A stretch of 64,000 bases of DNA, from positions 124,001 to 188,000 of the forward strand of contig NZ_FNFM01000006.1 of the NCBI RefSeq assembly GCF_900101095.1, given 5' to 3'. How positions within the stretch are numbered: position 1 is the first letter of the stretch; each line of letters starts with the position of its first letter. A program made the translations under genes and the position numbers. Source of the stretch: Actinopolyspora mzabensis (GTDB taxonomy: Bacteria; Actinomycetota; Actinomycetes; Mycobacteriales; Pseudonocardiaceae). This document shows, piece by piece, positions 5,153 through 61,723 of this stretch. The notes beneath the pieces were generated by a model. It did no database searches. It was given only the letters and a program-made list of their open reading frames with translations, and had not been told where the DNA came from.

Positions 5153-5263
5153 GGCGGAACCTCGCGCACGGCTCTCGCCGCGGGTGCCCCGACATCGGGT
5201 AGCGCCCTACACAACGTCGGGGCCGTCCCCGCGAGAGCCGCACCGGAGAACCCGCGGCGGTGC
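5153..5263 (+). repeat. 111-bp structured 3'-UTR element, copy A1
   Basis: Begins GGCGGAACCTC 37 bp after the sppA-like stop and ends GCGGCGGTGC. Outer arms CGGCTCTCGC/GCGAGAGCCG, inner stem GCCCCGAC/GTCGGGGC (8 perfect pairs), and an apical hairpin GTAG-CGCC-CTAC. The outermost part of the stem has two mismatches. It shares its exact length with copies at 12080, 33817, 36983 and 61613. Confidence 0.85.
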
Positions 5264-5308
5264 CGCCCGCGAGGGCGGTCGGAGTTCGGCTTCGCGGCGA
5301 GTGGCCCG

Positions 5309-5380
5309 GCGATTTCGTGGGAAATTGACGCCGGCGGGGCCGCACCGCCCCCAGTGGAGCGTCGATTTCGCGAGAGAGCG
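5309..5380 (+). repeat. Two short hairpin repeats P downstream of A1
   Basis: At 5309-5334 arms CGATTTC/GAAATTG enclose GTGG; at 5361-5380 a degraded copy reads CGATTTCGCGAGAGAGCG. They lie 46 and 98 bp past the 111-bp element and complete the content of the 547-bp gap before the response regulator. Confidence 0.65.
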
Positions 5381-5662
5381 AGCTCGCCCCGAGCCGGAGC
5401 CGACACATGCACCGGACCGCGGTGACCCGCACGGTCGTTTCCCTCTGACGAGGGAAAATCGGCGAAGTGTTGCATCGATCGTGCGAATGCGGTCGTACCC
5501 ACCCGGCGAAACGTGAATGCGGGGGCTTAGGTTGAATGCGGTGAGTGTGTTGACTCACTCACGGTCGGTTCGTTCCGGACGGTTCCACGGGCGGACTCCA
5601 CGACGTTCGGTGGAGTCGGCCGTGGACAGTGCCCGGTGTGCTCGGGAGGATTGGGCGTTGCC

Positions 5663-6586
5663 GTGAGTACCCCATATCGCATCAACGGTTCCCGTGATCG
5701 CGTAGAACGCGCCGGTTCCGGTGCCGGCGGTTCGGACGGTGGCGGGCTCGTAGTGCTCGTCGTCGACGACGAGGAGCCGGGAATCACGACGACCCGTGAC
5801 ATGCTCAACGGCAATTCACGGGTCGGCAAGGTGCTGACCGCCTTCGACGCCGCCGAGGCGCTGCGGCTGCTGCGGCAGGACAACCCGGATCTCGCCGGAC
5901 GCCCCTCCGACGCGCCCCTGGTCGACGCCGTTTTCATCGACGTCGCGATGCCGGGACTGACCGGAATGGACCTCGCCAGGGTGCTCTTCTCGTTCGAGAA
6001 CGCCCCCGCCCTGGTGTTCATAACCGCCCACGGCGAGAACGCGCTGGAGGCGTTCGACCTGGGGGCCATCGACTACGTCATGAAACCGGCCAGCCCGGAA
6101 CGGATGGAACGGGCGCTGCGCAAGGTGCAGCGGATCAGCACCCCGCTGGAGGGCTCCTCCGGCGACCGTTCCGCCCTGAACGCCGGCTCGACCGGTGCGG
6201 CGCTCGAACCGGCCGGACAGGACGACCACTCGGTCATCCCGGTGGAGCTCGGCGGCACCACCCGCCTGGTGCAGCGTTCCCAGGTGCGCTGGGTGGAGGC
6301 CCAGGGGGACTACGCGCGGCTGCACACCGACGAGGGCTCCCACCTGGTGCGGATTCCGCTCGCGCAGCTGGAGGAGAAGTGGGCGGACGCCGGTTTCGTC
6401 CGCATCCACCGGTCCTATCTGGTCTCGTTGAACCTCATAAACGAGCTGCGCATGTCGTCCTCCGGATATTCGGTGTTGATCGCCGGAGGTCAGTACCGCG
6501 AGACTCGTGAACTGCCGGTCAGTCGCAGGCACACCAGGGAACTCAAGGACCGGCTGGTGCGGTCACCCCGGCCACCCCGGGAATGA
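5663..6586 (+). CDS. LytTR-family response regulator
   Basis: This regulator of about 307 residues has a receiver domain starting at VLVVDDEEPG, phosphoacceptor Asp93 in FIDVAMPG, the switch Thr in FITAHGE and Lys in YVMKPA. A variable linker leads to a LytTR DNA-binding domain (VRWVEAQGDYARLHT...FVRIHRSYLV). It is the natural partner of the LytS-type kinase upstream and is followed 36 bp later by a small membrane protein and a symporter, which are probable targets. GTG 5663 is preferred, with GGGAGGA upstream at longer than usual spacing; an in-frame GTG at 5636 is possible. Confidence 0.87.
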   Translation: MSTPYRINGSRDRVERAGSGAGGSDGGGLVVLVVDDEEPGITTTRDMLNGNSRVGKVLTAFDAAEALRLLRQDNPDLAGRPSDAPLVDAVFIDVAMPGLTGMDLARVLFSFENAPALVFITAHGENALEAFDLGAIDYVMKPASPERMERALRKVQRISTPLEGSSGDRSALNAGSTGAALEPAGQDDHSVIPVELGGTTRLVQRSQVRWVEAQGDYARLHTDEGSHLVRIPLAQLEEKWADAGFVRIHRSYLVSLNLINELRMSSSGYSVLIAGGQYRETRELPVSRRHTRELKDRLVRSPRPPRE

Positions 6587-6622
6587 CCCCGCGGGCCACC
6601 ACTTCTAAGAGGGTCGACGAAC

Positions 6623-12041: not shown

Positions 12042-12079
12042 TGCCGCCGGGGTGGCCCGGTCTGCTCGGGTGGTCGCTT

Positions 12080-12190
12080 GGCGGAACCTCGCGCACGGCT
12101 CTCGCTGCGGGGAGGCCCGACATCGGGTAGCGACCTACACAACGTCGGGCCTTCCTCGCGAGAGCCGCACGCGAGAACCCGCGGCGGTGC
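12080..12190 (+). repeat. 111-bp structured 3'-UTR element, copy A2
   Basis: Starts 38 bp after the SEC-C protein stop. Outer stem CTCGCGCACGGCTCTCGC pairs with GCGAGAGCCGCACGCGAG apart from a CA/CA step; the inner stem is GGCCCGAC/GTCGGGCC; the apical hairpin is GTAG-CGAC-CTAC. Confidence 0.87.
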
Positions 12191-12208
12191 GAGCTGCGTG
12201 AGTGGTGT

Positions 12209-12243
12209 AAGCGGCTGGCGCCGCTTGGCGTAGCTCGGTTTTT
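12209..12243 (+). terminator. Intrinsic terminator behind element A2
   Basis: Stem AAGCGGC/GCCGCTT is followed within 11 bases by a run of five T, the only copy of the repeat family here with a classical T-tailed terminator behind it. Confidence 0.65.
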
Positions 12244-12269: not shown

Positions 12270-12464
12270 GACCGTGCGTGTCGCAGCGCGGGTGTCTCGA
12301 GCGCGTGAGGCGGATGCATTGCGAGGCCGGGCCGCCTCGCCGCGTAGGTCGCTACTCAAGAGCGGCCCAACGCGGCGAGGCGCCGCCTCACGTGCCGGCT
12401 ACCCGACCACCGTGCCAGAGCGACCGGTACGGCAAAGCAGCGAGAGCCCGCGAGAGGTTCCGCC
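12270..12464 (-). repeat. ~195-bp composite 3'-UTR element, copy B1
   Basis: Read on the minus strand it starts GGCGGAACCTCTCGC 47 bp after the ferritin stop. It aligns along its whole length with the plus-strand copy at 41295-41490 and shares the first ~25 bases and the GAGTAGCGACCTAC hairpin with the 111-bp family. It and A2 fill the 470-bp convergent gap. Confidence 0.8.
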
Positions 12465-12511
12465 ACACGACCAGCTACGACGAGCGAGCCGACACAGTGC
12501 TTCGCGGGGTC

Positions 12512-13072
12512 TCAGACGGCGCCGCCTGCGGCCTCGGGCGCGGAGGAGTCCGCACCCTCCTCGCCCACCTGCTCCCGGGTGAGGAAGTTCTCCACCTCGA
12601 AGAGGTTGCCGTTCGCGCGGTCGACCACGGTCAGCAGGGTGGACATCTGCGAGACCTCCTCGACCTGTTCCTTGAGGAACCACTGCATGAACTGCTCGCC
12701 GATGTAGTCGTCCTCGGCACGCGCGGTCCTGGCCAGCAGCTCGATCTCGCGGGTGACCTCGCGCTCCTGTTCCAGCGCCAGAGCGACGAGTTCGCGTGCC
12801 TCGTTGAACTCGTTGCGTACCTCGTCGACCGCCGGAATGTGCACGGAAATGTCGTTGTCCATCAGGAACTGCACGATCATCATGCCGTGATTGCGCTCTT
12901 CCAGCGCCTGCTTGTAGAAGTGCGCGGCGAGGCGGGGAAGATCGGATTTGTCGAACCACACGGCGAGTGCGATGTACTGTTGCGAGGCATTGAACTCGCT
13001 GCGCACCTGCTTCTGCAGCAGCTCGTGGAACTTGGATTCGTGTTCTTCCGGTTTGGCCGCCTTCAAAGTCAT
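12512..13072 (-). CDS. Ferritin
   Basis: A 186-residue non-haem ferritin. Four helices carry the ferroxidase ligands: Glu in LQKQVRSEFNASQQY, the EERNHGMMI helix, and QFMQWFLKEQVEEV. The shell oxidises Fe(II) with oxygen and stores ferric mineral. The C-terminus is a short acidic/alanine tail. Iron-box-like repeats immediately upstream suggest iron-dependent control. Confidence 0.93.
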   Translation of the reverse strand: MTLKAAKPEEHESKFHELLQKQVRSEFNASQQYIALAVWFDKSDLPRLAAHFYKQALEERNHGMMIVQFLMDNDISVHIPAVDEVRNEFNEARELVALALEQEREVTREIELLARTARAEDDYIGEQFMQWFLKEQVEEVSQMSTLLTVVDRANGNLFEVENFLTREQVGEEGADSSAPEAAGGAV

Positions 13073-24433: not shown

Positions 24434-24464
24434 CCCCGGCCACGGCGTAAACGGCGTCTGTTGG

Positions 24465-24671
24465 TCAGCTCTGGTCGTAGTCGCCGGTTTTGAGGCGGTT
24501 CAAGAATCCTGCCCAGGCTGCGGGGGTGACGGTGAGAGTGCCGCCCGCGCGGTCCTTGGTGTCGCGGATGGTGATGGTGGGGTCGGCGAAGCCGACTTCG
24601 ACGCAGTGGGCGTTGTTGGCGCTGCGGCTGGGCTTGCGCCATGTGTGCGGTGCGGGATGTTCACGGGTCAT
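24465..24671 (-). CDS. DUF397 protein, copy 1
   Basis: A 68-residue protein with the DUF397 pattern: TWRKPSRSANNAHCVEVG, then IRDTKDRAGGTLTVTPAAWAGFLNRLK. DUF397 genes accompany XRE/DUF5753 regulators in actinomycetes, with links to development and toxin-antitoxin-like behaviour. This one lacks an adjacent XRE gene and appears to be a duplicate of the copy at 26996. ATG 24671 is used; the frame stays open upstream. Confidence 0.85.
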   Translation of the reverse strand: MTREHPAPHTWRKPSRSANNAHCVEVGFADPTITIRDTKDRAGGTLTVTPAAWAGFLNRLKTGDYDQS

Positions 24672-24716
24672 CGTCACGGCTGAGTTCCACCTTCCTGGCT
24701 GATCGGACACCGAACA

Positions 24717-25551
24717 GGACGCTTCGGAGTAGCTCATCACGCGGGGTCACTTCGCCGCTGGCCACGACGGCAGCGACAGCTCCAGGGCCTGCTTTGCCAA
24801 GTCGCACGGGTTTACTTTTCCGATGTTCTCAGTGGAAATAAAAGTGGAGGACAGGACTATCTGGTTTTCGTTCGCGGCCATGTACATTGCGCAGCCTGAA
24901 CTCTTCGCGGGATCTTTATCATTTGTCACGACGGCGGGGTGTCCGGAAACCTCTAGTTTTTCGAAGTATCCGTAGCTCGATTTGTTGTCGTAGTACTGTT
25001 GAATGGTGCGTCCGGGAAAGGCGACCAAGGAAACTCGCTCCGAAACGATCTCTCCAGCTCTCCATCGGCATAGATCTGGGAGGCTGGGTTTGAGGTCGTT
25101 CGGGATCCTTTCGCCTTTGGTCTCCACTCCCAGCGTGGTGGCGGCTTCGTCCGGTAGCAGCTCGCACGGTTCGAGGGCAGCGGGGTTTTTCGGGTTGGTT
25201 ATTCCGGTTCCTGACTGTGAGTCGGATGAGGTTACGCTGCTGGTGGTTGTGTCTTCTGGGTTTCCGGTCTGTCCCGTTGAGTCACTGGAGCAGGCGGCCA
25301 GTGCCATGGTCAGTGCGAGTCCGCCCGCGATGACAGAGCCGCGTCGTGCCTTGTGCATGAGGTTTTCCACGGTGTTCAGCTCTGCCTTTCGGTGTCGCGT
25401 TGTGCGAGCGAGGCGTTGTCCTCGGCGATGTCGTATTCGCGCAGCAGGGCTTCGTAAGCGGCTATCTTCTCGTTCAGTTTGTCGCGAATGTCCTCAGCGG
25501 CAGCGTGAAGCGATCCTTCGGGGGCGTTCATACGCTTCTGGAACGCCTCGC
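24717..25551 (-). repeat. Tandem duplication, unit 1
   Basis: This 835-bp unit is closely similar to 25666-26504. It covers the DUF3558 gene and the last part of the WXG-like gene. Similarity begins at GGACGCTTCGGAGTAGCTCAT and stops abruptly after GGAACGCCTCGC. Confidence 0.85.
24747..25370 (-). CDS. DUF3558 lipoprotein, copy 1
   Basis: A 207-residue secreted lipoprotein. Signal peptide ARRGSVIAGGLALTMALAAC ends in a lipobox cysteine, followed by a Ser/Thr-rich linker and a DUF3558 domain (NPAALEPCELLPDEAATTLG...CRW...CAMYMAANENQ). Paired cysteines probably form disulfides outside the membrane. Function is unknown. It is roughly 90% identical to the copy at 25700, with most differences in the linker. 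GTG 25370 lies 5 nt after the broken upstream gene's stop; ATG 25358 is an alternative. Confidence 0.83.
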   Translation of the reverse strand: MENLMHKARRGSVIAGGLALTMALAACSSDSTGQTGNPEDTTTSSVTSSDSQSGTGITNPKNPAALEPCELLPDEAATTLGVETKGERIPNDLKPSLPDLCRWRAGEIVSERVSLVAFPGRTIQQYYDNKSSYGYFEKLEVSGHPAVVTNDKDPAKSSGCAMYMAANENQIVLSSTFISTENIGKVNPCDLAKQALELSLPSWPAAK

Positions 25552-25559
25552 TCGTGGGA
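25376..25559 (-). pseudogene. Truncated WXG-like gene (5' part lost)
   Basis: The sequence matches the last ~60 codons of the intact gene at 26329 (EAFQKRM...EDIRDKL...AAYEALLREY...RDTERQS). Upstream of EAF the match ends and an in-frame TAA occurs at about 25560. A 51-residue product from ATG 25531 is still possible, but it would lack the N-terminal half. Confidence 0.8.
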
Positions 25560-25579
25560 GCTTAGGGTGAAGGTGGTTG

Positions 25580-25636
25580 TGGAACTCCTGTGATGGAGGT
25601 GGTCGTGCCGTGGATCCTCCTCACGAAGGAGTTCCA
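25580..25636. repeat. 57-bp inverted repeat at the duplication junction
   Basis: TGGAACTCCT (25580-25589) and AGGAGTTCCA (25627-25636) are perfect 10-bp inverted arms around 37 bp. The structure fills the gap between the two duplicated units, where the WXG-like gene was broken. It could be a MITE or an IS footprint; no transposase is present. Confidence 0.5.
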
Positions 25637-25665
25637 GCTACCGGGTTGTGTCTGTGACCTCGGGA

Positions 25666-26504
25666 GGACGCTTCGGAGTAGCTCATTACCCCTGTGGGGT
25701 CACTTCGCCGCCGGCCACGACGGTAGCGACAACTCCAGGGCTCGTTGCGCCAAGTCGCATGGGTTTGTTTTTCCGATATCGTTAGCAGGGATAGATGTGG
25801 AGGACAGGACTATCTGGTTTTCGTTCGCGGCCATGTACATCGCGCAGCTGGAGCTCTTCGCTGGATCCTCCGTGTTCCCCACAACCGCGGGGTGTTCGGA
25901 AACCTCTAGTTTTTCGAAGTATCCATAGCTCGATTTGTTGTCGTAGTATTGCTGGATGGTACGCCCGGGGAAAGCGACCAAGGAAACTCGCGTCGAACCG
26001 GTCTCTCCGCCTCTCCAGCGACATAGGTCTGGGAGGCTGGGTTTGAGGTCGTTCGGGATCCTTTCGCCTTTGGTCTCCACTCCCAGTGTGGTGGCGGCTT
26101 CGTCGGGCAGCAGCTCGCACGGTTCGAGTGCGGCGGGGTTTTTCGGGTTGGCGATTCCGGTTCCGGATTGCGAGGTGGACGAAGCCACGCTGCTGGTGGC
26201 TGTGTCTTCTGGAGTTCCGGTCTGGCCCGTTGAGTCACTGGAGCAGGCGGCCAGTGCCATGGTCAGTGCGAGGCCACCCGCGATGACAGCGCCGCGTCGT
26301 GCCTTGTACATGAGGTCTTCCACGGTGTTCAGCTTTGCCTTTCGGTGTCGCGTTGTGCGACCGAGGCGTTGTCCTCGGCGATGCCGTATTCGCGTAGCAG
26401 GGCTTCGTAAGCGGCTATCTTCTCATCCAATTTGTCGCGAATATCCTCAGCGGCAGCACGAAGAGATCCATCGACTCCGCTCATGCGCTTCTGGAACGCC
26501 TCGC
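25666..26504 (-). repeat. Tandem duplication, unit 2
   Basis: Partner of 24717-25551. This unit keeps its full WXG-like gene beyond the right end of the similarity. Confidence 0.85.
25700..26323 (-). CDS. DUF3558 lipoprotein, copy 2
   Basis: A 207-residue lipoprotein with the same layout as copy 1: signal peptide, LAAC lipobox, TPEDTATSSVASS linker, DUF3558 domain with the CELLPDEAATTLG and PDLCRW motifs. Its GTG start follows the intact WXG-like stop by five bases, indicating coupled translation. The pairing of a small helical secreted-type protein with a cell-surface lipoprotein may reflect a shared export route; this is inference. Confidence 0.84.
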   Translation of the reverse strand: MEDLMYKARRGAVIAGGLALTMALAACSSDSTGQTGTPEDTATSSVASSTSQSGTGIANPKNPAALEPCELLPDEAATTLGVETKGERIPNDLKPSLPDLCRWRGGETGSTRVSLVAFPGRTIQQYYDNKSSYGYFEKLEVSEHPAVVGNTEDPAKSSSCAMYMAANENQIVLSSTSIPANDIGKTNPCDLAQRALELSLPSWPAAK

Positions 26505-26661
26505 GTGCCTTTCCGGTGGTGTCGTCGTACGCGGTCAACTCACCGGGTTCGATCGACTCCGACTGTGTCATAAGATCTGCGGCCTCTTCCCGCGCTTTTC
26601 GCAGGTCCGCGATGGATGCTTTGAGTTTGTCGTGGTCGACGCTGAAACCATTTTGGCTCAC
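26329..26661 (-). CDS. Small helical WXG100/ESX-like protein
   Basis: A 110-residue, highly helical and charged protein. The N-terminal helix (VDHDKLKASIADLRKAREEA) and the later FQKRM...IRDKLDEKIAAYEALL helix form a hairpin such as type VII secretion substrates have, but no clear WXG or YxxxD motif is visible, so membership is tentative. GTG 26661 is chosen for the AAGGAG site before it. First gene of a pair with the DUF3558 lipoprotein. Confidence 0.6.
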   Translation of the reverse strand: MSQNGFSVDHDKLKASIADLRKAREEAADLMTQSESIEPGELTAYDDTTGKAREAFQKRMSGVDGSLRAAAEDIRDKLDEKIAAYEALLREYGIAEDNASVAQRDTERQS

Positions 26662-26941
26662 GTCTGCTCCTTCCTGGGCCGTTGGCCGCTGGGTCGTGAT
26701 CCGAAACCGGGTCACATCCTGCCGGATCTGGGTGTGTCGCGTCAGCGGGATGGACCTATGGCCACTATGACGATCAGCACTCCGAGGTGCTTCGGGAACG
26801 CACTGCGATCACTCGGATGGCCCAGCGCTGTCGGCAGTGCTCGCGCGTGTGGAGAGCGGCCAACCAGGTGAGGTCGCTCTGCCGAACGGTTCGCGAGTCT
26901 GATCGGGATGCCGCCCCTACCGCGTAGTGCCGGGGCTTTGT

Positions 26942-26962
26942 GAATTTCGCGAGAAATCGACG
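26942..26962 (+). repeat. Short hairpin repeat P
   Basis: GAATTTC-GCGA-GAAATCGACG, 34 bp past the DUF397 stop at 26996. The rest of 26662-26995 has no credible gene. Confidence 0.6.
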
Positions 26963-26995
26963 CCCCGGCCACGGCGTAGCGGCGTGCGCGCGAGG

Positions 26996-27193
26996 TCAGC
27001 CCTGGTCGTACCCGCCGGTTTTGAGACGGTCCATGAACTCGGCCCAGGCTGCGGGGGTGACGGTGAGGGTGCCGCTTGCGCGGTCCTTGGTGTCGCGGAT
27101 GCCGACGGCCCGGCTGGATAATGCGACTTCGACGCAACCTTGGTCATCGTTGGAGTAGGAGGACTTCTGCCAGGCGTGGGCGGTGAAGCGCAT
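26996..27193 (-). CDS. DUF397 protein, copy 2
   Basis: A 65-residue DUF397 protein (AWQKSSYSNDDQGCVEVA, then IRDTKDRASGTLTVTPAAWAEFMDRLK). It lies three bases after the XRE regulator stop and is surely co-transcribed with it. In Streptomyces such pairs resemble regulator/antagonist modules. Its C-terminal half is nearly identical to copy 1 at 24465. Confidence 0.9.
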   Translation of the reverse strand: MRFTAHAWQKSSYSNDDQGCVEVALSSRAVGIRDTKDRASGTLTVTPAAWAEFMDRLKTGGYDQG

Positions 27194-33816: not shown

Positions 33817-33927
33817 GCACCGCCGCGGGTTCTCGGGTGCGGCTCTCGCGAGGACGGCCCCGACGTTGTGTAGTAACTACCCGAGGTCGGGCCTCCCCGC
33901 AGCGAGAGCCGTGCCAGAGGTTCCGCC
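33817..33927 (-). repeat. 111-bp structured 3'-UTR element, copy A3
   Basis: On the minus strand it begins 36 bp after the cydB stop. The left inner arm GGCCCGAC matches A2 while the right inner arm GTCGGGGCC matches A1, so one pair is lost; the apical hairpin is GTAG-TTA-CTAC. This mixed copy looks like a recombinant. The gap 33596-33963 holds this element and the two P repeats. Confidence 0.85.
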
Positions 33928-33963
33928 AAGCGAGCACCCTCCACACCCGAGCAGACGAACCTC

Positions 33964-34971
33964 TCAAGCGGCGTGCACCGGAGGGATGTGCTTGGTCCCG
34001 ATCCGCTTGCGGAACACCCAGTAGGTCCACCCCTGGTAGACCAGCACGGCCGGGGTCCCGAACGCGGCCACCCAGGTGACCACGGTCAGGGTGTAGGAGC
34101 TGGACGCGGTCTCGGCGATCGACAGCGACCACGCCGGGTCGAGCGTGGAGGGCAGCACGTTCGGCCACAACGCGCCGAACAGCGTCACCACCGCCCCGGC
34201 CAGCGCCACTCCCTGCAGCACGAACGCCTGGCCGTCGCGGCCCACCGCCTGCCGCGCGAGCGCGGCGAGCCCCGTCAGCAGCGCGATCAGCAGCGGAATC
34301 CAGGTCCAGGGCGCTCCTTCCCGCAGTTGGGCGACCAGCAGCAGCCCCACCACGGGCAGCAGCAGCGGGACCCCGAACCGCAGCGCGAAGCGGTGGGCCC
34401 GTTCCCGCACGTCGCCCTCGGTCTTCAGCGCCAGGAACGCGGCGCCGTGCAGCAACGAGAACGCCGCCACGGCCACGGCTCCGAGCACGTTGGGCAGCGT
34501 GAGGATGACCAGCGGGCCACCGACCCGGTCCCCGTTGGCGTCCAGCGGCAGCCCGAACACGGTCGCCGAGAGCACGAGGCCGACCATCAGCGGAGCGATC
34601 CACGAGGCGAGCACGATCACCGTGTCCCAGGCACGACGCCACCGGGCGGTGTCGACCTTGCCCCGGTACTCGAACGCCACGCCTCTGCCGATGAGCACCA
34701 GCAGCAGCACGGTGAACGGCAGGTAGGCGGTGCTCAGCAGCCCCGCGTACCAACCGGGGAACGAGGCGAACATGGCGCCGCCCGCCACGATCAGCCAGAC
34801 CTCGTTGCCGTCCCAGACCGGGCCGATCGTGTTGATCAGCACGCGGCGTTCGGTCTCCCTGCGTCCCAGCACGGGAAGCAGCATGCCGACGCCGAAGTCG
34901 AAGCCCTCCAGGAAGAGGTAGCCCAGCCAGAGCAGGGCGATGATGCAGAACCAGACGGTCGGCAGGTCCAT
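33964..34971 (-). CDS. cydB: Cytochrome bd ubiquinol oxidase subunit II
   Basis: A 335-residue protein with 8 or more membrane helices and the CydB starts WFCIIALLWLGYLFLEGFDFGVGMLLP and GPVWDGNEVWLIVAGGAMFASFPGWYAGL. It forms the membrane oxidase with CydA and helps to shield the haem site. It lies 118 bp after cydA and ahead of the CydDC gene, with A3 in between. Confidence 0.95.
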   Translation of the reverse strand: MDLPTVWFCIIALLWLGYLFLEGFDFGVGMLLPVLGRRETERRVLINTIGPVWDGNEVWLIVAGGAMFASFPGWYAGLLSTAYLPFTVLLLVLIGRGVAFEYRGKVDTARWRRAWDTVIVLASWIAPLMVGLVLSATVFGLPLDANGDRVGGPLVILTLPNVLGAVAVAAFSLLHGAAFLALKTEGDVRERAHRFALRFGVPLLLPVVGLLLVAQLREGAPWTWIPLLIALLTGLAALARQAVGRDGQAFVLQGVALAGAVVTLFGALWPNVLPSTLDPAWSLSIAETASSSYTLTVVTWVAAFGTPAVLVYQGWTYWVFRKRIGTKHIPPVHAA

Positions 34972-35089
34972 CAGGTCACTCCGGTGGTCGGGGCGGTGGG
35001 GCGTGCGCGGCTGATTCCGCGCGGGTTCGGCAGCGGGTCACACGTGGGGTTGGTGGGGGAGAGGGGCAAACCGGTCCTCCGGAGCGGCG

Positions 35090-36616
35090 TCAGTAGGCGA
35101 ACGAGAGGACGTCGTCCGAACCGGAGCCGCCCGAATCGGAATCGTCCTCGGAGTCGTCGGAGGACTTGTGCGGCATCACTGACTCGAAACCTCCCCGCGC
35201 GTAGCGCACCATCAGGAACACCTCCACCACGAGCAGCACGCCGTAGACGGAGGTCAGCGCGATCAGCGAGGTCGTCATCTCGCCCGGCGAGACCCCGGAG
35301 GAGACGGCCTGCGCCGTGTACATCCAGACGCCGTCCACCCCCGAGGGATTGGGGTTGGGAGCCACCACGAACGGTTGGCGCCCCATCTCGGTGAAGATCC
35401 ACCCGAACACGTTGGCCAGGAACGGGGTGGCGATGGAGGCCAGTGCCAGCGGTCCCCACAGCCGCCCGCGCGGGAACCTGCCGCCCCTGGTGAACCAGAG
35501 CGCGCCCAGGGCGGCCAGGGCGGAGACCGCGCCGAAGCCGATCATGAACCGGAAGCCCCAGTAGGTGACCGGCAGGTTCGGCTGGTACTCGATCCGCTCG
35601 CCCGCGAGATCGCCCAGCCGGGGGTCGTCCGGGTAGTGCGTGCCGTACTTCGCGGCGTACTCGTCCTGCAGCTGCCGCACGCCCTTGACCTCGGTGCTGA
35701 AGTCGCCGTGGGCGAGGTAGGAGAGCATGAACGGCACGGTGATGCTCTTGACGCTCTCGCAGTCGGGGCGGCTGACGTCCCCGTAGGCGAAGACCGAGAA
35801 GCTGGCGGGCTGTTCGGTGTGGCACAGCGCCTCCGCCGAGGCCATCTTGAGCGGTTGCTGCTCGAACATCAGCTTGCCCTGGATGTCGCCGGAGATCGCC
35901 AGGCCCACGAAGGAGAACAGCGCCACCCACGCGCCGACCCGCATCGACTTGTGCCAGACCCGGCGGTCCTCGTCGTGCGGCATGCCCTGCCGGTCGCGTT
36001 TCCAGACCTTCCAAGCGGCGATGCCGAGCACGAACGTGCCCGCCACCGCGAAGCACCCGAAGATCGTGTGCGGGAAGGCCGCGAGCAGGGTGTTGTTGGT
36101 CAGCACGGCCCAGATCGAGCTCAGCCTGGGCTCGCCGTCGACCATCTCGACACCGACCGGATGCTGCATCCACGAGTTGGCGGCCAGGATGAAGTAGGCC
36201 GAAGCCACGGTGGCCAGCGAGAACGCCCAGGCGCAGGCCAGGTGCACCCGCTTGGACAGCCGGTCCCACCCGAAGATCCACAGCCCGAGGAAGACCGATT
36301 CCACGAAGAAGGCGACGATGCCCTCCATGGCCAGCGGTGCCCCGAAGACGTCGCCGACGAACCTGGAGTACTCGCTCCAGGCCATGCCGAACTGGAACTC
36401 CTGCACGATGCCGGTCACCACGCCCATGGCGAAGTTGACCATCATGAGCTTGCCCCAGAACTTGGTCATCTTCAGGTACCGCTCGTTACCGGTGCGGTAC
36501 CAGGCGGTCTGCATTCCCGCGACGAGGATCGCGAGGCCGATCGTCAACGGGACCATCAGGAAGTGATAAACCGTCGTGATCCCGAACTGCCACCTGGCGA
36601 TGTCGAGAAGATCCAC
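35090..36616 (-). CDS. cydA: Cytochrome bd ubiquinol oxidase subunit I
   Basis: A 508-residue protein with about nine membrane helices. It shows the CydA N-terminus DIARWQFGITTVYHFLMVPLTIG (His ligand of the high-spin haem), GRW-like and MQHPVG segments, and a periplasmic Q-loop around residues 250-330. CydA oxidises quinol and passes electrons to oxygen with high affinity. GTG 36616 precedes VDLLDIARWQFG. The tail is Ser/Asp-rich. No Rex-like operator was found upstream. Confidence 0.95.
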   Translation of the reverse strand: MDLLDIARWQFGITTVYHFLMVPLTIGLAILVAGMQTAWYRTGNERYLKMTKFWGKLMMVNFAMGVVTGIVQEFQFGMAWSEYSRFVGDVFGAPLAMEGIVAFFVESVFLGLWIFGWDRLSKRVHLACAWAFSLATVASAYFILAANSWMQHPVGVEMVDGEPRLSSIWAVLTNNTLLAAFPHTIFGCFAVAGTFVLGIAAWKVWKRDRQGMPHDEDRRVWHKSMRVGAWVALFSFVGLAISGDIQGKLMFEQQPLKMASAEALCHTEQPASFSVFAYGDVSRPDCESVKSITVPFMLSYLAHGDFSTEVKGVRQLQDEYAAKYGTHYPDDPRLGDLAGERIEYQPNLPVTYWGFRFMIGFGAVSALAALGALWFTRGGRFPRGRLWGPLALASIATPFLANVFGWIFTEMGRQPFVVAPNPNPSGVDGVWMYTAQAVSSGVSPGEMTTSLIALTSVYGVLLVVEVFLMVRYARGGFESVMPHKSSDDSEDDSDSGGSGSDDVLSFAY

Positions 36617-36892
36617 GCGTACCAGCCTGCCCCCGGAGCAGCTGGGGCTCACAGGACAAATCGTCCTCTTTCCCGCCGGGCGAGGGTCCCGGGGCGACCG
36701 GGACGTTGGTCCTGTCGGGGGAGGACCACTGGTCCGAGCCGGGGCGGATCAGGGCGCGATCAGGTGAGCGGCAGGGGCTTCACCCACGAATGAACGGAAT
36801 TCTCACTCCGAAATCGCCCGTTGTAAACCGCCCGCCCGAAAAATCCACCAGCAGGGGACGCTCCGATTCGCGGCCCAGGCGGCCCGGGTGGG

Positions 36893-36917
36893 TGTCAATT
36901 TCCCACGAAATCGCCGC
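36893..36917 (-). repeat. Short hairpin repeat P behind A4
   Basis: Minus strand: CGATTTC-GTGG-GAAATTG followed by ACA. It lies 66 bp past A4 in the same orientation. With A4 it accounts for the identifiable content of 36617-37129. Confidence 0.65.
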
Positions 36918-36982
36918 GCCCTCGCCGCGGAGCCGAGCTCCGAGCACTCCCGCAGGCCCAGCTCCCACCACTCACGCAATCG

Positions 36983-37093
36983 GCACCGCCGCGGGTTCTC
37001 CCGTGCGGCTCTCGCGAGGACGCCGGAGACGTTGTGTAGATCGCTACCCGATGTCGCCGGACCCGCAGCGAGAGCCGTGCGAGAGGTTCCGCC
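36983..37093 (-). repeat. 111-bp structured 3'-UTR element, copy A4
   Basis: Begins 36 bp past the IclR stop on the minus strand. Inner stem CCGGCGAC/GTCTCCGG with one mismatch; apical hairpin GTAG-CGAT-CTAC. It differs from A5 (61613) at a single base. Confidence 0.87.
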
Positions 37094-37129
37094 ACGAAAC
37101 CAGCTACGCAGACCGAGCCGACAATTCGA

Positions 37130-37831
37130 CTACCCGAGAGCGTCGGAGACGGCGGAGCAGGTGCGCACGACCAGGGGTCCGACCTCGTCCGGCGAGAGCG
37201 GCTCCATGGCCACCACGCCCACGCTGGCGCGCAGGCCGGGCACACCACGTACCGGAGCGGCCACGCCGTACGCCCCCGGCTGGAGCTCGCCGACGCTGGC
37301 CACCCACTTCGGCCCCTCCTCCGAGAGGTCCACGGCGCGCCCCGCCGCACCGCGCTGCACGGAATGTCTGGTGCCCACGCGGTAGGAGACGTGATAGCTC
37401 GTCCAGGACGGCTCGACCACGGCGATGGCCTGGGCCTCGTTGCCGTCGGCGACGGTGAGGTGAACCGTGGCCCCCACTCGTTCCGCCAGCGCGCGCAGCG
37501 CGGGCAGTGCCGCGAACCGCAGCTGCGGCACCACCTTGCCCGCCAGCCACAGCACGCCGAGGCCCAGCCGGACCTTGGAGCCCTCGCGCCGAACCAGGCC
37601 CCGGCTCTGCAACGGGCCCAGCAGCCGATACACCGCCGCCCTGCTGACGCCGACGATGGTGGCGAGGTCGCTGATGGTGGGGGCCTCGCTGTCGGCGTCG
37701 GCCACCGCCTGCAGCAGGTTGAGGCCGCGCTCCAGCGTCAGCGAACTCTCCTTCGTCGGAGTGGCGCCGGCGGGCTCCCGCTCGGGGTCCGGAGTGGGAT
37801 CCCCGGCGGATCGGGCCGAGCTCGTGCTCAT
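37130..37831 (-). CDS. IclR-family regulator of homogentisate catabolism
   Basis: A 233-residue protein with a winged-helix N-terminus (LERGLNLLQAVADADSEAPTISDLATIVGVSRAAVYRLLGPLQSRGLV, about 30-80) and an IclR effector domain (VGATVHLTVADG, YRVGTRHSVQRGAAGRA). It lies 4 bp after the fumarylacetoacetase gene. IclR proteins control aromatic catabolism, so it probably responds to a tyrosine-pathway metabolite. The start has GGAGG before ATG 37831. Confidence 0.88.
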   Translation of the reverse strand: MSTSSARSAGDPTPDPEREPAGATPTKESSLTLERGLNLLQAVADADSEAPTISDLATIVGVSRAAVYRLLGPLQSRGLVRREGSKVRLGLGVLWLAGKVVPQLRFAALPALRALAERVGATVHLTVADGNEAQAIAVVEPSWTSYHVSYRVGTRHSVQRGAAGRAVDLSEEGPKWVASVGELQPGAYGVAAPVRGVPGLRASVGVVAMEPLSPDEVGPLVVRTCSAVSDALG

Positions 37832-37835
37832 CGGG

Positions 37836-39041
37836 TCACCTCCGAACCGCGGGCAGCACCGTGCCGGACACGTCCCCCAACCCGACCGGACGGCCGTGCT
37901 CACCGGGCGCCGTGGCGCTGATCGTCACGCGGTCGCCGTCCTGCAGGAAGGTGCGCTGCTCGCCGTCCTCCAGCGTAATGGGATCGGAACCGCCCCAGCT
38001 GAGTTCGAGCAGGCAACCCCGTTGCTCGGGCTCCGGTCCCGAAACCGTACCGGAGGCGAACAGGTCGCCCGGTCGCACCGTGCTGCCGTTGACGGTCAGA
38101 TGCGCCAGCTGCTGCGCGGGCGACCAGTACATCTCCGCGAAGGGCGGTCGGGACAGCAGGGTGTCGTTGCACCGCACCTCCAGGCGCAGATCCAGGCCCC
38201 ACGGCCGCTGCTCGACGAGGTAGTCCAGCAGCTGGTGATCGTAGCCGGTGGTGGGGACCCGGGCCTGTTCCAGCGCCGCCAGCGGGGTGATCCAGCCCGA
38301 CACCGAGGTCGCGAACGACTTGGCCAGGAACGGACCCAGCGGCTGGTACTCCCAGGACTGGATGTCCCGGGCGGACCAGTCGTTGACCAGCAGGGCCCCG
38401 AAGACGTGTTCGTCGAATTCCTCGGGGCTCACGCACGAGGCCGGTTCGCCGCCGCAGACGAAGCCCACCTCCGCCTCGAAGTCGAGCCTGCGGGTGGGCC
38501 CGAACACCGGGGTGGGGTCACCGGAGACGCGGCGCTGCCCGTTGGGGCGGGCCACGTCCGTGCCGGAGACCACCACGGTGCCGGAGCGGCCGTGGTAGCC
38601 GACCGGCAGATGCGTCCAGTTCGGCAGCAACGGATCCGCTTCCCGGCGGAAGATCTTGCCGACGTTCTCGGCGTGGTGCCGGGAGGAGTAGAAGTCGGCG
38701 AAGTCGGCCACGGTGAACGGCATCAGCTGGGTGTGCCAGTCGGCGCGGATCAACTCGGCGTCCCGGGGACGTGAGTCGGCACCGACCAGCTCCAGCAGGC
38801 GTTCCCGCAGCTCGCGCCAGGCCGCCGGTCCCGCTGCGAGCAGCGGGTCCAACGAGTCGCCGGAGACGAGCTCGCCCACCCGCGGGCCGAGCTCGTCGGC
38901 GACGCTCCGCAGCGGGACGGCGTGTTTGCCCACCCGCACGGCCACCGTCGGACCCTTGGCGGTGCCCAGCACGCCGTAAGGCAGTGTCTGCGGCCCGAAC
39001 GGGCGGTCCGGCGCGAACTCTGGGTCCTCGATCCAGGTCAC
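37836..39041 (-). CDS. fahA: Fumarylacetoacetase
   Basis: A 401-residue enzyme that splits fumarylacetoacetate to fumarate and acetoacetate, the last step of tyrosine/homogentisate degradation. It has the N-terminal FAH domain, the catalytic/metal segment DFADFYSSRHHAENVGKIFR, LPVGYHGR, DFEAEVGFVCG, NDWSARDIQSWEYQPLGPFLAKSF and the GTVSG loop. GTG 39041 overlaps the previous stop (GTGA). Confidence 0.94.
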   Translation of the reverse strand: MTWIEDPEFAPDRPFGPQTLPYGVLGTAKGPTVAVRVGKHAVPLRSVADELGPRVGELVSGDSLDPLLAAGPAAWRELRERLLELVGADSRPRDAELIRADWHTQLMPFTVADFADFYSSRHHAENVGKIFRREADPLLPNWTHLPVGYHGRSGTVVVSGTDVARPNGQRRVSGDPTPVFGPTRRLDFEAEVGFVCGGEPASCVSPEEFDEHVFGALLVNDWSARDIQSWEYQPLGPFLAKSFATSVSGWITPLAALEQARVPTTGYDHQLLDYLVEQRPWGLDLRLEVRCNDTLLSRPPFAEMYWSPAQQLAHLTVNGSTVRPGDLFASGTVSGPEPEQRGCLLELSWGGSDPITLEDGEQRTFLQDGDRVTISATAPGEHGRPVGLGDVSGTVLPAVRR

Positions 39042-39910
39042 AACAGTTCCAACTCGACGAGATCGGACACGGGGTCGATGGGCGAAGTCGCCCCGTACGA
39101 GGAGAACACGCTCCGGACCGCCTTCGCCGCCTCGTCGGAGAGCGAGCACGCTTCCTCGGTCAGTGCTCGCTCGTCGGTGCTGGCCAGGGCCGCGCGCACG
39201 TCCTGACCGGACAGGGCGCGCCCCACGGCCACCAGCAGGTTCAGGAAGCCGTGGTGCGGGAACCCGGTCTCCGAGTCGGTACGGCGAACCGCGCGGGGCA
39301 TTCCGGCGGTCACCTTGAACGGAACCTCCAGCGTGGTGGCCACGGCCAGGAACTCGGCCACGACGTCGACGCTGGGGAAGGACTCGACGGTCTGGCCGCC
39401 CGACCGCAGTTTCGGCCAGCATCCGAACTCGGCGACCCGACGCACCCCGTCGAGCCATCCCTCGCCGCGTCGTGGTTCGACGACGCGAACCACGTCCTCC
39501 GGGACGAACTCGGAGACGCGTTCCAACCACACGTCGTCGACCTCGGACGGCCCGGGCATCTCGACCATCCGCAACGAGAGCAGTTCGTGTCGCCCCTCGA
39601 TGATCGACAGTGCCTTCGGCACCTCACCGAGCCCGGTGTCGCAGACCAGCGACATGGGAACGGGCTCGGCCGGTTTGGTCTTGGCCAGTTCGGTGATCAG
39701 TTCCGGCAGGCGGGAGACCTGGCAGAGGATTGGCCCCAGTAACCCCGCGTACTCGCCGTCCCGCGCACGCAGGTGTTCCTCAACCGCCTGAGCGACGGAC
39801 GCGTTGGCGGGCGGGAACAGCGAGGCATCGTCCACCAGACGTGCGAACAGGGGCGGAATACCGCGCGGACCGGGCGCGTGGAGTTCAACAGCGCTTGACA
39901 CGAGTGTCAC
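39038..39910 (-). CDS. Conserved protein of unknown function in the homogentisate operon
   Basis: About 290 residues, not recognised. Mixed alpha/beta, no signal peptide or membrane helix; segments IPPLFARLVDDASLFPP, ASVAQAVEEHLRAR, LSLRMVEMPG and HGFLNLLVA look like conserved blocks. It is translationally coupled to fumarylacetoacetase. The start is uncertain: GTG 39910 or GTG 39901 with no ribosome site, possibly leaderless. Homogentisate degradation also needs a maleylacetoacetate isomerase, and none is seen here; whether this protein supplies it is speculative because it lacks a glutathione-transferase look. Confidence 0.65.
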   Translation of the reverse strand: MTLVSSAVELHAPGPRGIPPLFARLVDDASLFPPANASVAQAVEEHLRARDGEYAGLLGPILCQVSRLPELITELAKTKPAEPVPMSLVCDTGLGEVPKALSIIEGRHELLSLRMVEMPGPSEVDDVWLERVSEFVPEDVVRVVEPRRGEGWLDGVRRVAEFGCWPKLRSGGQTVESFPSVDVVAEFLAVATTLEVPFKVTAGMPRAVRRTDSETGFPHHGFLNLLVAVGRALSGQDVRAALASTDERALTEEACSLSDEAAKAVRSVFSSYGATSPIDPVSDLVELELL

Positions 39911-39943
39911 GCTAATGCCGTGCCGGGCAGTGAACAAAAGTGT

Positions 39944-40002
39944 CCGCAAAACGAACGCTTTGCGGGATCGCTCGATTCGTCGCCGGTTCGGGGCGAACCG
40001 GC
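39944..40002. promoter_or_regulatory. Candidate IclR operators between divergent homogentisate genes
   Basis: GCCGGTTCG-GGG-CGAACCGGC (39982-40002) has perfect 9-bp arms; CCGCAAA/TTTGCGG (39944-39965) is a second inverted repeat. Both lie between the divergent operon starts. IclR operators are palindromes of this kind. Confidence 0.6.
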
Positions 40003-40073
40003 GCTCGTTCGGCTGTCAGCCCGGGGTTTTTGCAGCGTTCGACTTCGCCGCACTCGATCGACCGGAGGCCGGT

Positions 40074-41261
40074 ATGCCGTACTACCGCCAAGTGGGTCAG
40101 ATTCCGCGCAAGAGGCACACGCGGTTCCGTCAACCGGACGGCAGCCTCTACGCCGAGGAACTGATGGGAATCGAGGGGTTCTCCTCGGAATCGGCTCTGC
40201 TGTACCACCGCGGACTGCCCACCGCGGTCCTCGCGGCCGAAGCGGTCCCCGAGCAGGGACGTGCCACCGAACCCAACCTGCCACTCCGGCCACGGCACTT
40301 CCGCACCGGAGAGCTCGCGTTCCCGAGCGGTGAGGCCGGTACCGACGCGGTCACCGGGCGCAGGCTGCTGTTCGGCAACAGCGACGTGTCGATCTGCTTC
40401 GCGGTGCCCGACACCACGAGCCCGCTCTACCGCAACGCGACAGGTGACGAGCTGTGCTACGTGCAGCGCGGCTCGGCACGATTCGAGACGATCTACGGCG
40501 CCCTGGAGGTCGCCGAGGGCGACTACGTGCTGCTGCCCGCCTCCACCACGTACCGGGTGGTGCCGCTGGGCGAACAACCGCCCCGGCTGTACCTCGTGGA
40601 AGCCACCGGGCACATCGGCCCGCCCAAGCGCTATCTCAGCGCCAAAGGGCAGTTCCTGGAGAGCTCCCCCTACTGCGAACGGGACCTGCGCGGCCCCACG
40701 GAGCCGCTGCTGCTGGAGGGCGAGCACGTGGACGTGCTGGTGCGGCACCACGACGGCCTCACCCGGATGACGTACGAGCACCACCCCTTCGACGTGGTCG
40801 GCTGGGACGGCTGCCTGTATCCGTGGGTGTTCAACATCGCCGACTTCGAACCGATCACCGGACGCATCCACCAGCCGCCGCCGGTGCACCAGACCTTCGA
40901 GGGGCCGAACTTCGTGGTGTGCTCGTTCTGCCCCCGCAAGGTGGACTACCACCCGGACTCGATCCCGGTGCCGTACAACCACGCCAATGTGGACTCCGAC
41001 GAGCTGATGTTCTACGTGGGAGGCAACTACGAGGCGCGGAAGGGATCCGGAATCGGCATCGGCTCGCTGTCGCTGCACCCCTCCGGATGCAGCCACGGGC
41101 CACAACCGGGGGCGGCGGAGGCCTCGCTGGGCGCGGAGCGGTTCGACGAGACGGCCGTCATGATCGACACCTTCCGGCCGCTGCGGTTGGGCGAGGCGGC
41201 CACCGCATCGGAAGACCCCACCTACTACCGCAGCTGGGTCACCAACAAGCCGAATGGCTGA
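40074..41261 (+). CDS. hmgA: Homogentisate 1,2-dioxygenase
   Basis: A 395-residue cupin-fold dioxygenase that opens the ring of homogentisate with oxygen to give maleylacetoacetate. Iron ligands are likely the His/Glu of the C-terminal half: PVHQTFEGPNFV, YNHANVDSDELMFYVGGNYEAR and LHPSGCSHGPQPG. ATG 40074 follows GGAGG. Divergent from the fumarylacetoacetase operon. Confidence 0.95.
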   Translation: MPYYRQVGQIPRKRHTRFRQPDGSLYAEELMGIEGFSSESALLYHRGLPTAVLAAEAVPEQGRATEPNLPLRPRHFRTGELAFPSGEAGTDAVTGRRLLFGNSDVSICFAVPDTTSPLYRNATGDELCYVQRGSARFETIYGALEVAEGDYVLLPASTTYRVVPLGEQPPRLYLVEATGHIGPPKRYLSAKGQFLESSPYCERDLRGPTEPLLLEGEHVDVLVRHHDGLTRMTYEHHPFDVVGWDGCLYPWVFNIADFEPITGRIHQPPPVHQTFEGPNFVVCSFCPRKVDYHPDSIPVPYNHANVDSDELMFYVGGNYEARKGSGIGIGSLSLHPSGCSHGPQPGAAEASLGAERFDETAVMIDTFRPLRLGEAATASEDPTYYRSWVTNKPNG

Positions 41262-41294
41262 GCAAGTCGGCTCGGTGGGCCCGGCGGTGCGGGT

Positions 41295-41490
41295 GGCGGA
41301 ACCTCTCGCACGGCTCTCGCCGTGTTGCTGTGCCGGTCGCTCTGGTGAGTTGGTCGGGTAGCCGGCACGTGAGTCGGCGCCTTGGGAGTGTGGGCCGGCT
41401 CTTGAGTAGCGACCTACGCGGCGAGCGGCCCGGCCTCGCGATGCATCCGACTCACGCACCGGGGACAATCGCGCTGCGAACCGCACGGTC
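41295..41490 (+). repeat. ~195-bp composite 3'-UTR element, copy B2
   Basis: Begins GGCGGAACCTCTCGCACGG 33 bp after the dioxygenase stop and aligns over its whole length with B1 (12270-12464, minus strand), about 80% by eye. Shared internal blocks are GGTCGGGTAGCCGGCACGTGAG and GAGTAGCGACCTACGCGGCGAG. Confidence 0.8.
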
Positions 41491-59611: not shown

Positions 59612-59729
59612 TTCGAAGCGAATCCGAGCGTCGGGCACTACCGGGTGCGCCGGTCCGGGGCCGGAACACCGGCCCCGGACGGGTCCCCGGAGTGGACGCA
59701 CCTCGGCAGGAGAGGAAGCCGGAGACGAA

Positions 59730-60326
59730 GTGGACGCAGAGCTGACCACCGTGGCGGCCGAGCCGATCGAGCGGATCGAGCCGGAGCAGACCACGGAGGA
59801 GAGAATGCCCGCTGCAGTCACGGCAGAGACCACCGCGGTGCGCCGTGTGCAGCACGTGCTGGCAACACCACCGGTGGTTACCGTCGCGAAGGGCATGTCC
59901 AAATTCGGCGATCACGCCCTCGGCTGGCTGGCGCTCGGGGCGGTCGGGGCGCTCACCGACCGCCGCCGTCGTCGCGAGTGGGTACTGGCCGCCGCCGGTG
60001 TCGCCGTTTCGCACGGCGCCTCCATCGCGGTCAAGCGCGTCGTGCGACGCAACCGCCCCGGCGACCCGGGCATCCGGGTGCTGGTCGACACCCCCAGCCG
60101 GTTGAGCTTTCCCTCCTCGCACGCCACTTCGACGACCACGGCCGCGATTCTTTACGGCAGGTTGCTCGGGCGCGGGCTGGGACCGGTGGTGGTGCCGCCG
60201 ATGATGGTCAGCCGCCTGGTGCTCGGTGTTCACTACCCGAGTGACGTGCTGGTCGGTTCGGGACTCGGTGGGACCGTCGCGCTGGGCGTACGTCGATACG
60301 TCGAACGGCGGAGGAACCGTGGCTGA
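59730..60326 (+). CDS. PAP2-superfamily phosphatase (decaprenyl-phosphoryl-phosphoribose phosphatase-like)
   Basis: A 198-residue membrane phosphatase with the three PAP2 motifs KRVVRRNRP, PSSHA and SRLVLGVHYPSD. By position between glfT2 and ubiA (as Rv3807c) it likely dephosphorylates decaprenyl-phosphoryl-5-phosphoribose on the way to the arabinose donor DPA. It overlaps ubiA by eight bases. Confidence 0.9.
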   Translation: MDAELTTVAAEPIERIEPEQTTEERMPAAVTAETTAVRRVQHVLATPPVVTVAKGMSKFGDHALGWLALGAVGALTDRRRRREWVLAAAGVAVSHGASIAVKRVVRRNRPGDPGIRVLVDTPSRLSFPSSHATSTTTAAILYGRLLGRGLGPVVVPPMMVSRLVLGVHYPSDVLVGSGLGGTVALGVRRYVERRRNRG

Positions 60327-61575
60327 CAGGAACGAAGCCGATTCCAGGACCGCGGAGGACACCACCGCGGGAAGCAACGAGGGGCAGCGGTCCGAGCGGT
60401 CGGCGACAGGATCCGCTTCCGGCGGCGGTGTCGACACCGCCACCACCGAGCGCGAAGCCGAGACCGAACGTGACGCCGAATCCTCGCCCGCCGAGGCACG
60501 TGCCGCGGACACCGAAGAGGCCGTGCGGGCCGACTCCGAGGGACTGATCGGCTCGGAGGCGGGCGGTGAGGCCGGTGCGCTGGAGGACCGGTTCACCGAA
60601 GACACGGCGAGCACGGCCCCGGCGGGGGAAACGAGCGCCGCGGGATCGTCCCAGGACAAGTCCTCGGACGCCTACCACGCGAGGGTGATCGCCGCCGCGG
60701 GAACTCCGAGCGGGCTGCTCAACGGCCTGCTCAAGGAGCTACGACCGAAGCAGTGGGTCAAGAACATCCTGGTGCTGGCCGCACCGTTCAGCGCGGGTGA
60801 GCTGTGGGCGGTTCCGACCCTGCTCGACGCTGCCGTGGCCTTCGCGGTCTTCTCGATGGCCGCTTCGGGGATCTACTTCATCAACGACGCTCTCGACGTG
60901 GAGTCCGATCGGGCGCACCCCACCAAACGAAACCGGCCGATCGCGGCGGGGTTGATCCCGCTGCCGGTGGCCTACGGGGTGTGCGGGTTGCTGCTCGTGG
61001 GCTCGCTGGTCGTCTCCGGCCTGATGAGCATGGGCCTGCTGGCGGTGATGGTCGTCTACGTCGCCGTGCAGCTCGGCTACTGCTTCGGCCTCAAGCACCA
61101 GCCGGTGATCGACCTGTGCATAGTGGCCTCCGGCTTCCTGCTGCGCGCGGTGGCGGGCGGCGCGGCCGCCGGGCTGGAGATCACCCAGTGGTTCTACATC
61201 GTGGTCGCTTTCGGCTCGCTGTTCATGGTGGCGGGCAAGCGCTACGCGGAGGTCAAGCTCGCCAACGAGACCGGAGCCAAGATCCGCAAGTCGCTACGGG
61301 CCTACTCCGCCTCGTACCTGCGGTTCGTCTGGGCCATCTCGGCCGCGATCATGATCATGTCCTACAGCATGTGGGCCTACGACATCCGGCAGGAGGACAA
61401 CTCGATCTGGGGAGTGGTGTCGATCATTCCCTTCGTGATCGGCATCCTGCGTTACGCGGTGGACGTGGACAAGGGCGTGGCCGGTGAACCGGAGGAAGTG
61501 GCACTCAAGGACAAGGTGCTGCTGGTGCTGTTCGGCATCCTCGCAGGGTGTCTTTTCTTCGCCTTCTACCTCTGA
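60319..61575 (+). CDS. ubiA: Decaprenyl-phosphate phosphoribosyltransferase
   Basis: A 418-residue UbiA-superfamily enzyme: a ~115-residue acidic, probably disordered N-terminus, then about nine membrane helices with the prenyl/Mg motif NDALDVESDRAHPTKRNRPI and the second site region FMVAGKRYAEV. It attaches phosphoribose to decaprenyl phosphate for arabinan synthesis. GTG 60319 follows GGCGGAGGAACC. The acidic extension is longer than in M. tuberculosis UbiA. Confidence 0.94.
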   Translation: MADRNEADSRTAEDTTAGSNEGQRSERSATGSASGGGVDTATTEREAETERDAESSPAEARAADTEEAVRADSEGLIGSEAGGEAGALEDRFTEDTASTAPAGETSAAGSSQDKSSDAYHARVIAAAGTPSGLLNGLLKELRPKQWVKNILVLAAPFSAGELWAVPTLLDAAVAFAVFSMAASGIYFINDALDVESDRAHPTKRNRPIAAGLIPLPVAYGVCGLLLVGSLVVSGLMSMGLLAVMVVYVAVQLGYCFGLKHQPVIDLCIVASGFLLRAVAGGAAAGLEITQWFYIVVAFGSLFMVAGKRYAEVKLANETGAKIRKSLRAYSASYLRFVWAISAAIMIMSYSMWAYDIRQEDNSIWGVVSIIPFVIGILRYAVDVDKGVAGEPEEVALKDKVLLVLFGILAGCLFFAFYL

Positions 61576-61612
61576 GCGAGGTTTTCGGCTCGGTCTGTGC
61601 GGCGGTGCGGGT

Positions 61613-61723
61613 GGCGGAACCTCTCGCACGGCTCTCGCTGCGGGTCCGGCGACATCGGGTAGCGACCTACACAACGTCTCCGGCGTCCTCGCGAGAGCCG
61701 CACGGGAGAACCCGCGGCGGTGC
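61613..61723 (+). repeat. 111-bp structured 3'-UTR element, copy A5
   Basis: Starts 37 bp after the ubiA stop. Inner stem CCGGCGAC/GTCTCCGG; apical hairpin GTAG-CGAC-CTAC. One base different from A4, 24.6 kb away and on the other strand. Confidence 0.87.

Follow-up and report, generated by a model that had tools for sequence, protein, structure and literature searches.

A large hairpin repeat at gene 3′ ends, oriented preferentially with the replication fork, in part of the Pseudonocardiaceae

A hairpin element of 111 nucleotides (nt) recurs five times in a 64,000-nt stretch of the Actinopolyspora mzabensis genome (contig NZ_FNFM01000006.1, positions 124,001 to 188,000; hereafter the window), and we placed 128 copies of it, 123 of them full length, in that genome as a whole. 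The element is numerous, lies at the 3′ ends of genes, has a conserved fold, is biased towards the direction of the replication fork where gene sense cannot decide its orientation, and is turned over in blocks at fixed sites. We tentatively interpret it as a large DNA hairpin repeat resembling the repetitive extragenic palindromic (REP) and enterobacterial repetitive intergenic consensus (ERIC) sequences. It occurs in some members of the Pseudonocardiaceae and would be homogenised by replication-linked gene conversion.

Re-examination of the window confirmed the five copies of a preliminary description, each 111 nt long and 36–38 nt past the stop codon of a same-strand gene. The hosts are unrelated, and Pfam agrees with the names first given to them: S49 peptidase, DUF5926/SEC-C, cytochrome bd subunit II (CydB), IclR, and UbiA. 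The copies, with the conserved leader and tail on either side, are as follows.

5153–5263, plus strand: copy A1 (leader ~5117–5152, tail ~5264–5308), 37 nt past the stop of the S49 peptidase gene (4207–5115), tandem genes
12080–12190, plus strand: copy A2 (leader ~12044–12079, tail ~12191–12235), 38 nt past the stop of the DUF5926/SEC-C gene, convergent genes
33817–33927, minus strand: copy A3 (leader ~33928–33963, tail ~33772–33816), 36 nt past the stop of cydB, tandem genes
36983–37093, minus strand: copy A4 (leader ~37094–37129, tail ~36938–36982), 36 nt past the stop of the IclR gene, tandem genes
61613–61723, plus strand: copy A5 (leader ~61577–61612, tail ~61724–61768), 37 nt past the stop of the ubiA-family gene, convergent genes

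Within the window, folding alone gave z-scores from -1.7 to -5.5, and the inner stems pair as initially described except in A3, where the arms are unequal through a bulge or mismatch. For A2 and A5, the sense orientation carries no information, because convergent neighbours make either orientation sense to some gene.

The genome of the window (G000; 5.0 Mb in 24 contigs) contained at least 40 full places by BLAST, with E values from 1.7e-52 upwards, well outside what chance would give. A first covariance model, built from 32 copies, gave 138 matches among the best 150 of 8780 candidates, some of which were one place read on both strands; site retrieval then yielded the 128 placed copies. Matched lengths among the 123 full-length copies ranged from 96 to 112 nt, and the conserved unit exceeds the hairpin, as it also includes a leader of ~28–36 nt and a tail of ~45 nt; because conservation starts ~31 nt before the hairpin, the unit nearly abuts the stop codon. 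Using genes called with a simple purpose-made codon-usage caller, we found that a same-strand gene precedes 101 of the 123 copies (median distance 38 nt), 88 of these at 20–50 nt, and that an opposite-strand gene lies on the 5′ side of the other 22. None of the 123 lies inside a gene, and convergent or tandem contexts hold 117; convergent contexts alone hold 56, whereas of the long intergenic regions in contig C13 26 of 143 are convergent. The association with the 3′ ends of genes is strong. Loci from named genomes gave a similar picture: at least 83 exact pattern matches were found in 80 loci, both neighbours were known for 74, and 44 of 64 copies with a sense gene upstream were at 20–50 nt, among the matches listed. 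Contig C9 of G000 (472 kb) holds a single copy among the matches listed.

Judged from an alignment of 43 sequences representing eight genomes and five genera, the hairpin fold is conserved. In this alignment, 96.7% of cells pair (80.6% when shuffled) and compensated double changes occur in 18 of 31 pairs, values reached by none of 500 shuffles. The apical GTAG pairs within the stem and covaries with its partner, becoming GTAT/ATAC or GAAT/ATTC in other genera. By contrast with these changing stems, an AAC/AAC internal loop is nearly constant, which is not expected from drift towards perfect palindromes. Genus g50 is informative because few or no donor copies remain there: the element follows the same gene in four genomes (GatB by Pfam in the two tested), and a second covariance model (R2) finds no second copy in three of these and one more in the fourth. 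Even so, compensated changes distinguish the g50 stems (CTGAG/CTCAG versus CTCAG/CTGAG in one case), so that constraint acts even where copying from elsewhere is scarce. Among the many copies of one genome, compensated differences are not independent evidence for RNA selection, because they are often block swaps between copies.

Such swaps became apparent when orthologous sites were compared. Between G000 and G004, both flanks could be mapped for 25 sites, and the element was present in G004 at 18 and absent at 7. At two of the seven, the related variant B occupies the place. The others resemble truncations, internal deletions, or, in the ambiguous case of L158, complete loss, and no clean empty site is among the seven. 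In 15 pairs, orthologous elements were 0.872 identical and non-orthologous ones 0.861, and the ortholog was the best match in only 3 of the 15, whereas coding ends were 0.892 identical between orthologs and 0.517 otherwise. The leader was still orthologous (≥0.89) in 8 of the 15 pairs, and the tail reached ≥0.78 in 4, against 0.65 for random pairs. The two members of pair L028 agree in leader and tail and differ mainly in the inner stem, where both arms have changed at once. One chimeric element combines variants B and A, with the junction at the apex. Nine pairs between G000 and G003 followed the same trend (elements 0.849 versus 0.828; coding ends 0.873 versus 0.540). Copies overwrite one another at fixed sites, because orthologous elements are no more alike than random ones while their flanks are; by this comparison, addresses are kept and contents replaced.

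We next consider orientation. The preliminary description had the element always in sense to its host gene, which fails genome-wide: between same-strand genes, 45 copies were sense and 16 antisense in G000, and 24 and 7 in loci of other records, among the matches listed, besides the 22 copies lacking a same-strand gene on the 5′ side. Fork direction was assigned in complete genomes by taking dnaA to mark the origin. Copies ran with the fork in 98 of 130 cases in G022 and in 92 of 135 cases in G003; among the matches listed, G009 gave 28 of 39 and contig C2 of G002 gave 64 of 86. Ordinary genes ran with the fork in 130 of 199 cases at G022 loci not beside elements and in 168 of 321 in a G003 stretch; relative to these genes, the excess of the copies is clear in G003 (p = 0.0019). 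Neighbour contexts, covering 72 of the 130 copies in G022 and 46 of the 135 in G003, isolate the cases that gene sense cannot decide. Convergent copies were with the fork 38:14 when pooled (26:7 in G022), and copies with no sense gene on the 5′ side 15:4 in the two genomes (p = 0.019), comprising 10:2 in antisense tandem and 5:2 in divergent contexts. The region of G003 opposite the origin, 1.48–2.71 Mb, holds no copy among the matches listed.

The complementary strand folds better than the sense strand in 188 of 194 copies (109 of 112 in G000 and 79 of 82 in named records), counts in which copies share ancestry and are not independent. With RNA energies, the mean in G000 was -73.0 kcal/mol for the complement and -61.8 kcal/mol for the sense strand. 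Given the with-fork orientation and this more stable complement, it is the less stable strand that serves as template for the lagging strand. Because lagging-strand hairpins are prone to deletion, the favoured orientation may spare the repeat from being lost.

These observations can be accommodated by a dispersed imperfect-palindrome repeat of ~180 bp (leader, 111-nt hairpin, and tail) that would act mainly at the DNA level. A passing fork would expose single strands, one of which may fold into the hairpin and be rewritten from other copies, probably by gene conversion or template switching, with its site kept. Rewriting from copy to copy would produce likeness within a genome and exchange whole blocks (outer stem, inner stem, apex, or tail) between copies, and losses would occur via deletion in the hairpin. 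Insertion or survival would favour the with-fork orientation and sites just past stop codons, where no promoter is disturbed. New sites are presumably gained as well, and the host may or may not benefit.

Several points weigh against this proposal. No responsible enzyme emerged from profile searches of carrier genomes for Y1 transposase and RVT_1. Compared with ordinary genes, the copies in G022 show a borderline whole-genome excess in the with-fork direction (p = 0.066), and convergent copies in G003 taken alone (12:7) are not significantly biased. Tandem genes running with the fork carry 39 sense and 2 antisense copies, an imbalance not expected from an explanation in terms of DNA alone; tandem genes against the fork carry 8 and 10. 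Replication direction and gene direction thus both seem to matter for orientation. Moreover, the fork bias could follow from leading-strand gene expression, the constant placement 29–44 nt past the stop in most copies looks functional, and position and the seeming avoidance of promoters could reflect use as RNA.

The last points lead to the first alternative, which we consider rather doubtful: a sense-strand RNA in the 3′ untranslated region (3′ UTR), folding past the stop codon and stabilising or ending the mRNA, probably via a protein bound at the conserved loops, with the fork bias a by-product of host expression. The 88 copies at 20–50 nt past a same-strand stop, the tandem sense excess in both data sets, the enrichment in convergent contexts, and the compensated changes after gatB in g50 genomes with one or two copies all suit such an RNA. 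It does not account for the 22 copies without a sense gene on the 5′ side, still biased 15:4 with the fork in the complete genomes, for the better folding of the complement, or for the lack of a T-run. Wobble counts, used to tell the functional strand, conflict. In the sense structure of 215 copies, G.U exceeded A.C 364:85 over all pairs, whereas the ratio was even (77:84) once pairs above 15% wobble/A.C were set aside; among 193 distinct sequences from other genera it was 87:59. In the complement structure, it was 49:142 in the window's genus, where a single pair supplied 80 of the 142, and 267:214 elsewhere; the counts thus disagree between data sets and stem regions. RNAalifold predicted 34 pairs, 21 with double changes, for the complement and 31 and 18 for the sense strand. 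Pairing evidence therefore does not single out sense RNA: of the first reading of the compensated stems as selection on the fold, probably as 3′-UTR RNA, the fold and its covariation in a larger alignment stand, but the assignment to sense RNA is supported only in part. In addition, only 2 clear orthologous hosts were found among 36 searched between genera, so that element positions are not conserved that deep; G003 orthologs of G000 hosts keep a sense element at 11 of 19. A sense RNA role, even alongside a role in DNA, is possible.

Two specific RNA identities were also considered. An intrinsic terminator shares with the element a stable hairpin shortly past the stop, but was rejected for lack of a T-run: on neither strand does any of the 123 copies have a 10-nt stretch with six or more T in the 25 nt beyond the stem; conserved internal loops and the behaviour of an interspersed repeat are further differences. 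No known Rfam family gave a credible covariance-model match: Rfam 15 reported only tRNA in the window at gathering scores and nothing credible at the element in 10 loci at E up to 5, in keeping with the initial view that no known riboswitch resembles it.

A further alternative, which we regard as unlikely, is a non-autonomous transposon like a miniature inverted-repeat transposable element, mobilised now or formerly by a single-strand transposase of the IS200/IS605 type or of the REP-associated tyrosine transposase (RAYT) type. Insertion on the lagging strand would produce the fork polarity of the copies, as the accessible part of one source describes for IS200/IS605, which insert into the lagging-strand template (PMC6006769), and large copy-number differences between genomes would fit. 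However, the element contains no transposase gene, Y1 transposase had no match in carriers G002, G008, G022, and G023, the 3.4-kb locus around the one Y1_Tnp match of G000 contains neither an A nor a B element, and there were no clean empty sites among the seven absences. A RAYT/Y1 link was thus not found. Copying by a reverse transcriptase was likewise set aside, RVT_1 having no match in most carriers checked (G000, G003, G004, G022, and others), while G002 and G021 do have one.

Among known repeats, the nearest comparison is with the REP, BIME, and REPIN sequences of the GTAG and CGTC families. According to the accessible part of PMC3733652, REPs are palindromic, intergenic, present in more than 100 copies per genome, and found downstream of coding regions in mostly convergent or same-strand contexts, as is the element. 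According to the same text, REPs measure 20–40 bp and carry at one end a tag, GTAG or CGTC, that stays unpaired (PMC3733652), whereas the element matches over 96–112 nt plus leader and tail and, in the window's genus, has its GTAG paired within the apical stem; other genera have GTAT or GAAT there. The RAYT gene flanked by the repeat that goes with REPs, for which no counterpart was found in the carriers searched, is a third point of difference. The early impression that the element is unlike known REP families is upheld on length, tag, and RAYT, while copy number and context are REP-like. The accessible parts of PMC12306157 and PMC2267715 do not name these genera, and open-licence literature on Actinopolyspora, Saccharopolyspora, and Pseudonocardiaceae gave nothing on the element family among the matches listed.

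ERIC and other imperfect palindromes of 100–150 bp are intergenic, and in size and placement the element is like them, compared here by general description; they belong to another lineage, and we know of no sequence common to ERIC and the element.

Lastly, an RNA hairpin on the opposite strand, stopping or blocking transcription from the far side before the neighbouring gene, appears very improbable: the ~10 kcal/mol more stable complement, the extra wobble pairs at columns 22-100 and 23-99 (U.G 18 and G.U 12 of 43, against A.C 1 and 0), and placement at both stop and start sides would be explained, but pairs 19-103, 48-73, and 50-71 are among several leaning to the sense strand, the opposite strand has no T-run, and no fork bias is predicted.

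The family is unevenly distributed. Model R1 found it in 14 of 41 genomes (G000 included), with all 10 of the window's genus, and in none of 16 genomes from other families of the order. Model R2 drew on copies from several genera; applied to the best 25 candidates per genome, it detected the family in 41 of the 150 genomes and in 13 of the 46 sampled Pseudonocardiaceae genera. Named records with the family are Actinopolyspora, Saccharopolyspora, Amycolatopsis, and Halopolyspora, among the matches listed. No exact pattern match occurred in phages (viral_contigs). Copy number varies from 130 matches in G022 and 136 in G003 to 2 in G006 and 1 in each of the four g50 genomes besides the one with an extra copy. 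G006 belongs to the window's genus, where nine of ten genomes have at least 93 copies, as if the family were almost lost there. A Nonomuraea match has the hairpin base in common and a different core; at Nonomuraea candida L359, the base is GCGGAACC..GAACCCGC, perhaps a related family in another order.

Remnants and variant B elements also occur in the window.

41295–41324, plus strand: 5′ remnant of the A element, 33 nt past the stop of a gene with an HgmA domain (Pfam), followed by variant B
41355–41489, plus strand: variant B element, with the architecture and GTAG..CTAC apex of A and different arms
12440–12465, minus strand: 5′ remnant of the A element after a ferritin-like gene (12512–13072), followed by variant B
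12271–12406, minus strand: variant B element, facing copy A2

Other palindromes accompany the hairpin. One resembling GATTTCGCGAGAAATC lies at window positions 5312, 5365, 23027, 24415, 26944, 33679, 33731, 36898, 41520, 41572, and 61801; it has 29 occurrences in contig C13, all intergenic, and 65 of 115 hairpin copies have it in the 190 nt that follow them. In named records, 23 of 82 copies have a palindrome AAGCGGC..GCCGCTT starting 26–36 nt beyond the end of the pattern (loci L280–L358; ~0.8 expected). Window positions ~33800–41300, containing cydB, the IclR gene, and the HgmA-domain gene, are inverted relative to G003, with bordering genes keeping their direction and the elements moved along. 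Positions 24463–27136 contain duplications (24743–25042/25696–25995, 84%; 24463–24605/26994–27136, 83%) around two similar short open reading frames.

Returning to the DNA-repeat interpretation, a bolder form of it, which we consider rather doubtful, is a class of replication-polarised, self-homogenising hairpins, in which the address is kept, modules are copied between distant copies at the fork, and RNA-like covariation both arises and persists in DNA with no transposase or reverse transcriptase devoted to it. If the interpretation is true, gene conversion among dispersed bacterial hairpins would be directly visible by comparing orthologous sites. It would also caution against reading compensated pairs among copies within a genome as a sure sign of RNA selection. 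Moreover, a fork-biased repeat near stop codons makes it testable whether interspersed palindromes are RNA signals, chromosome-organising sites, or self-copying DNA.

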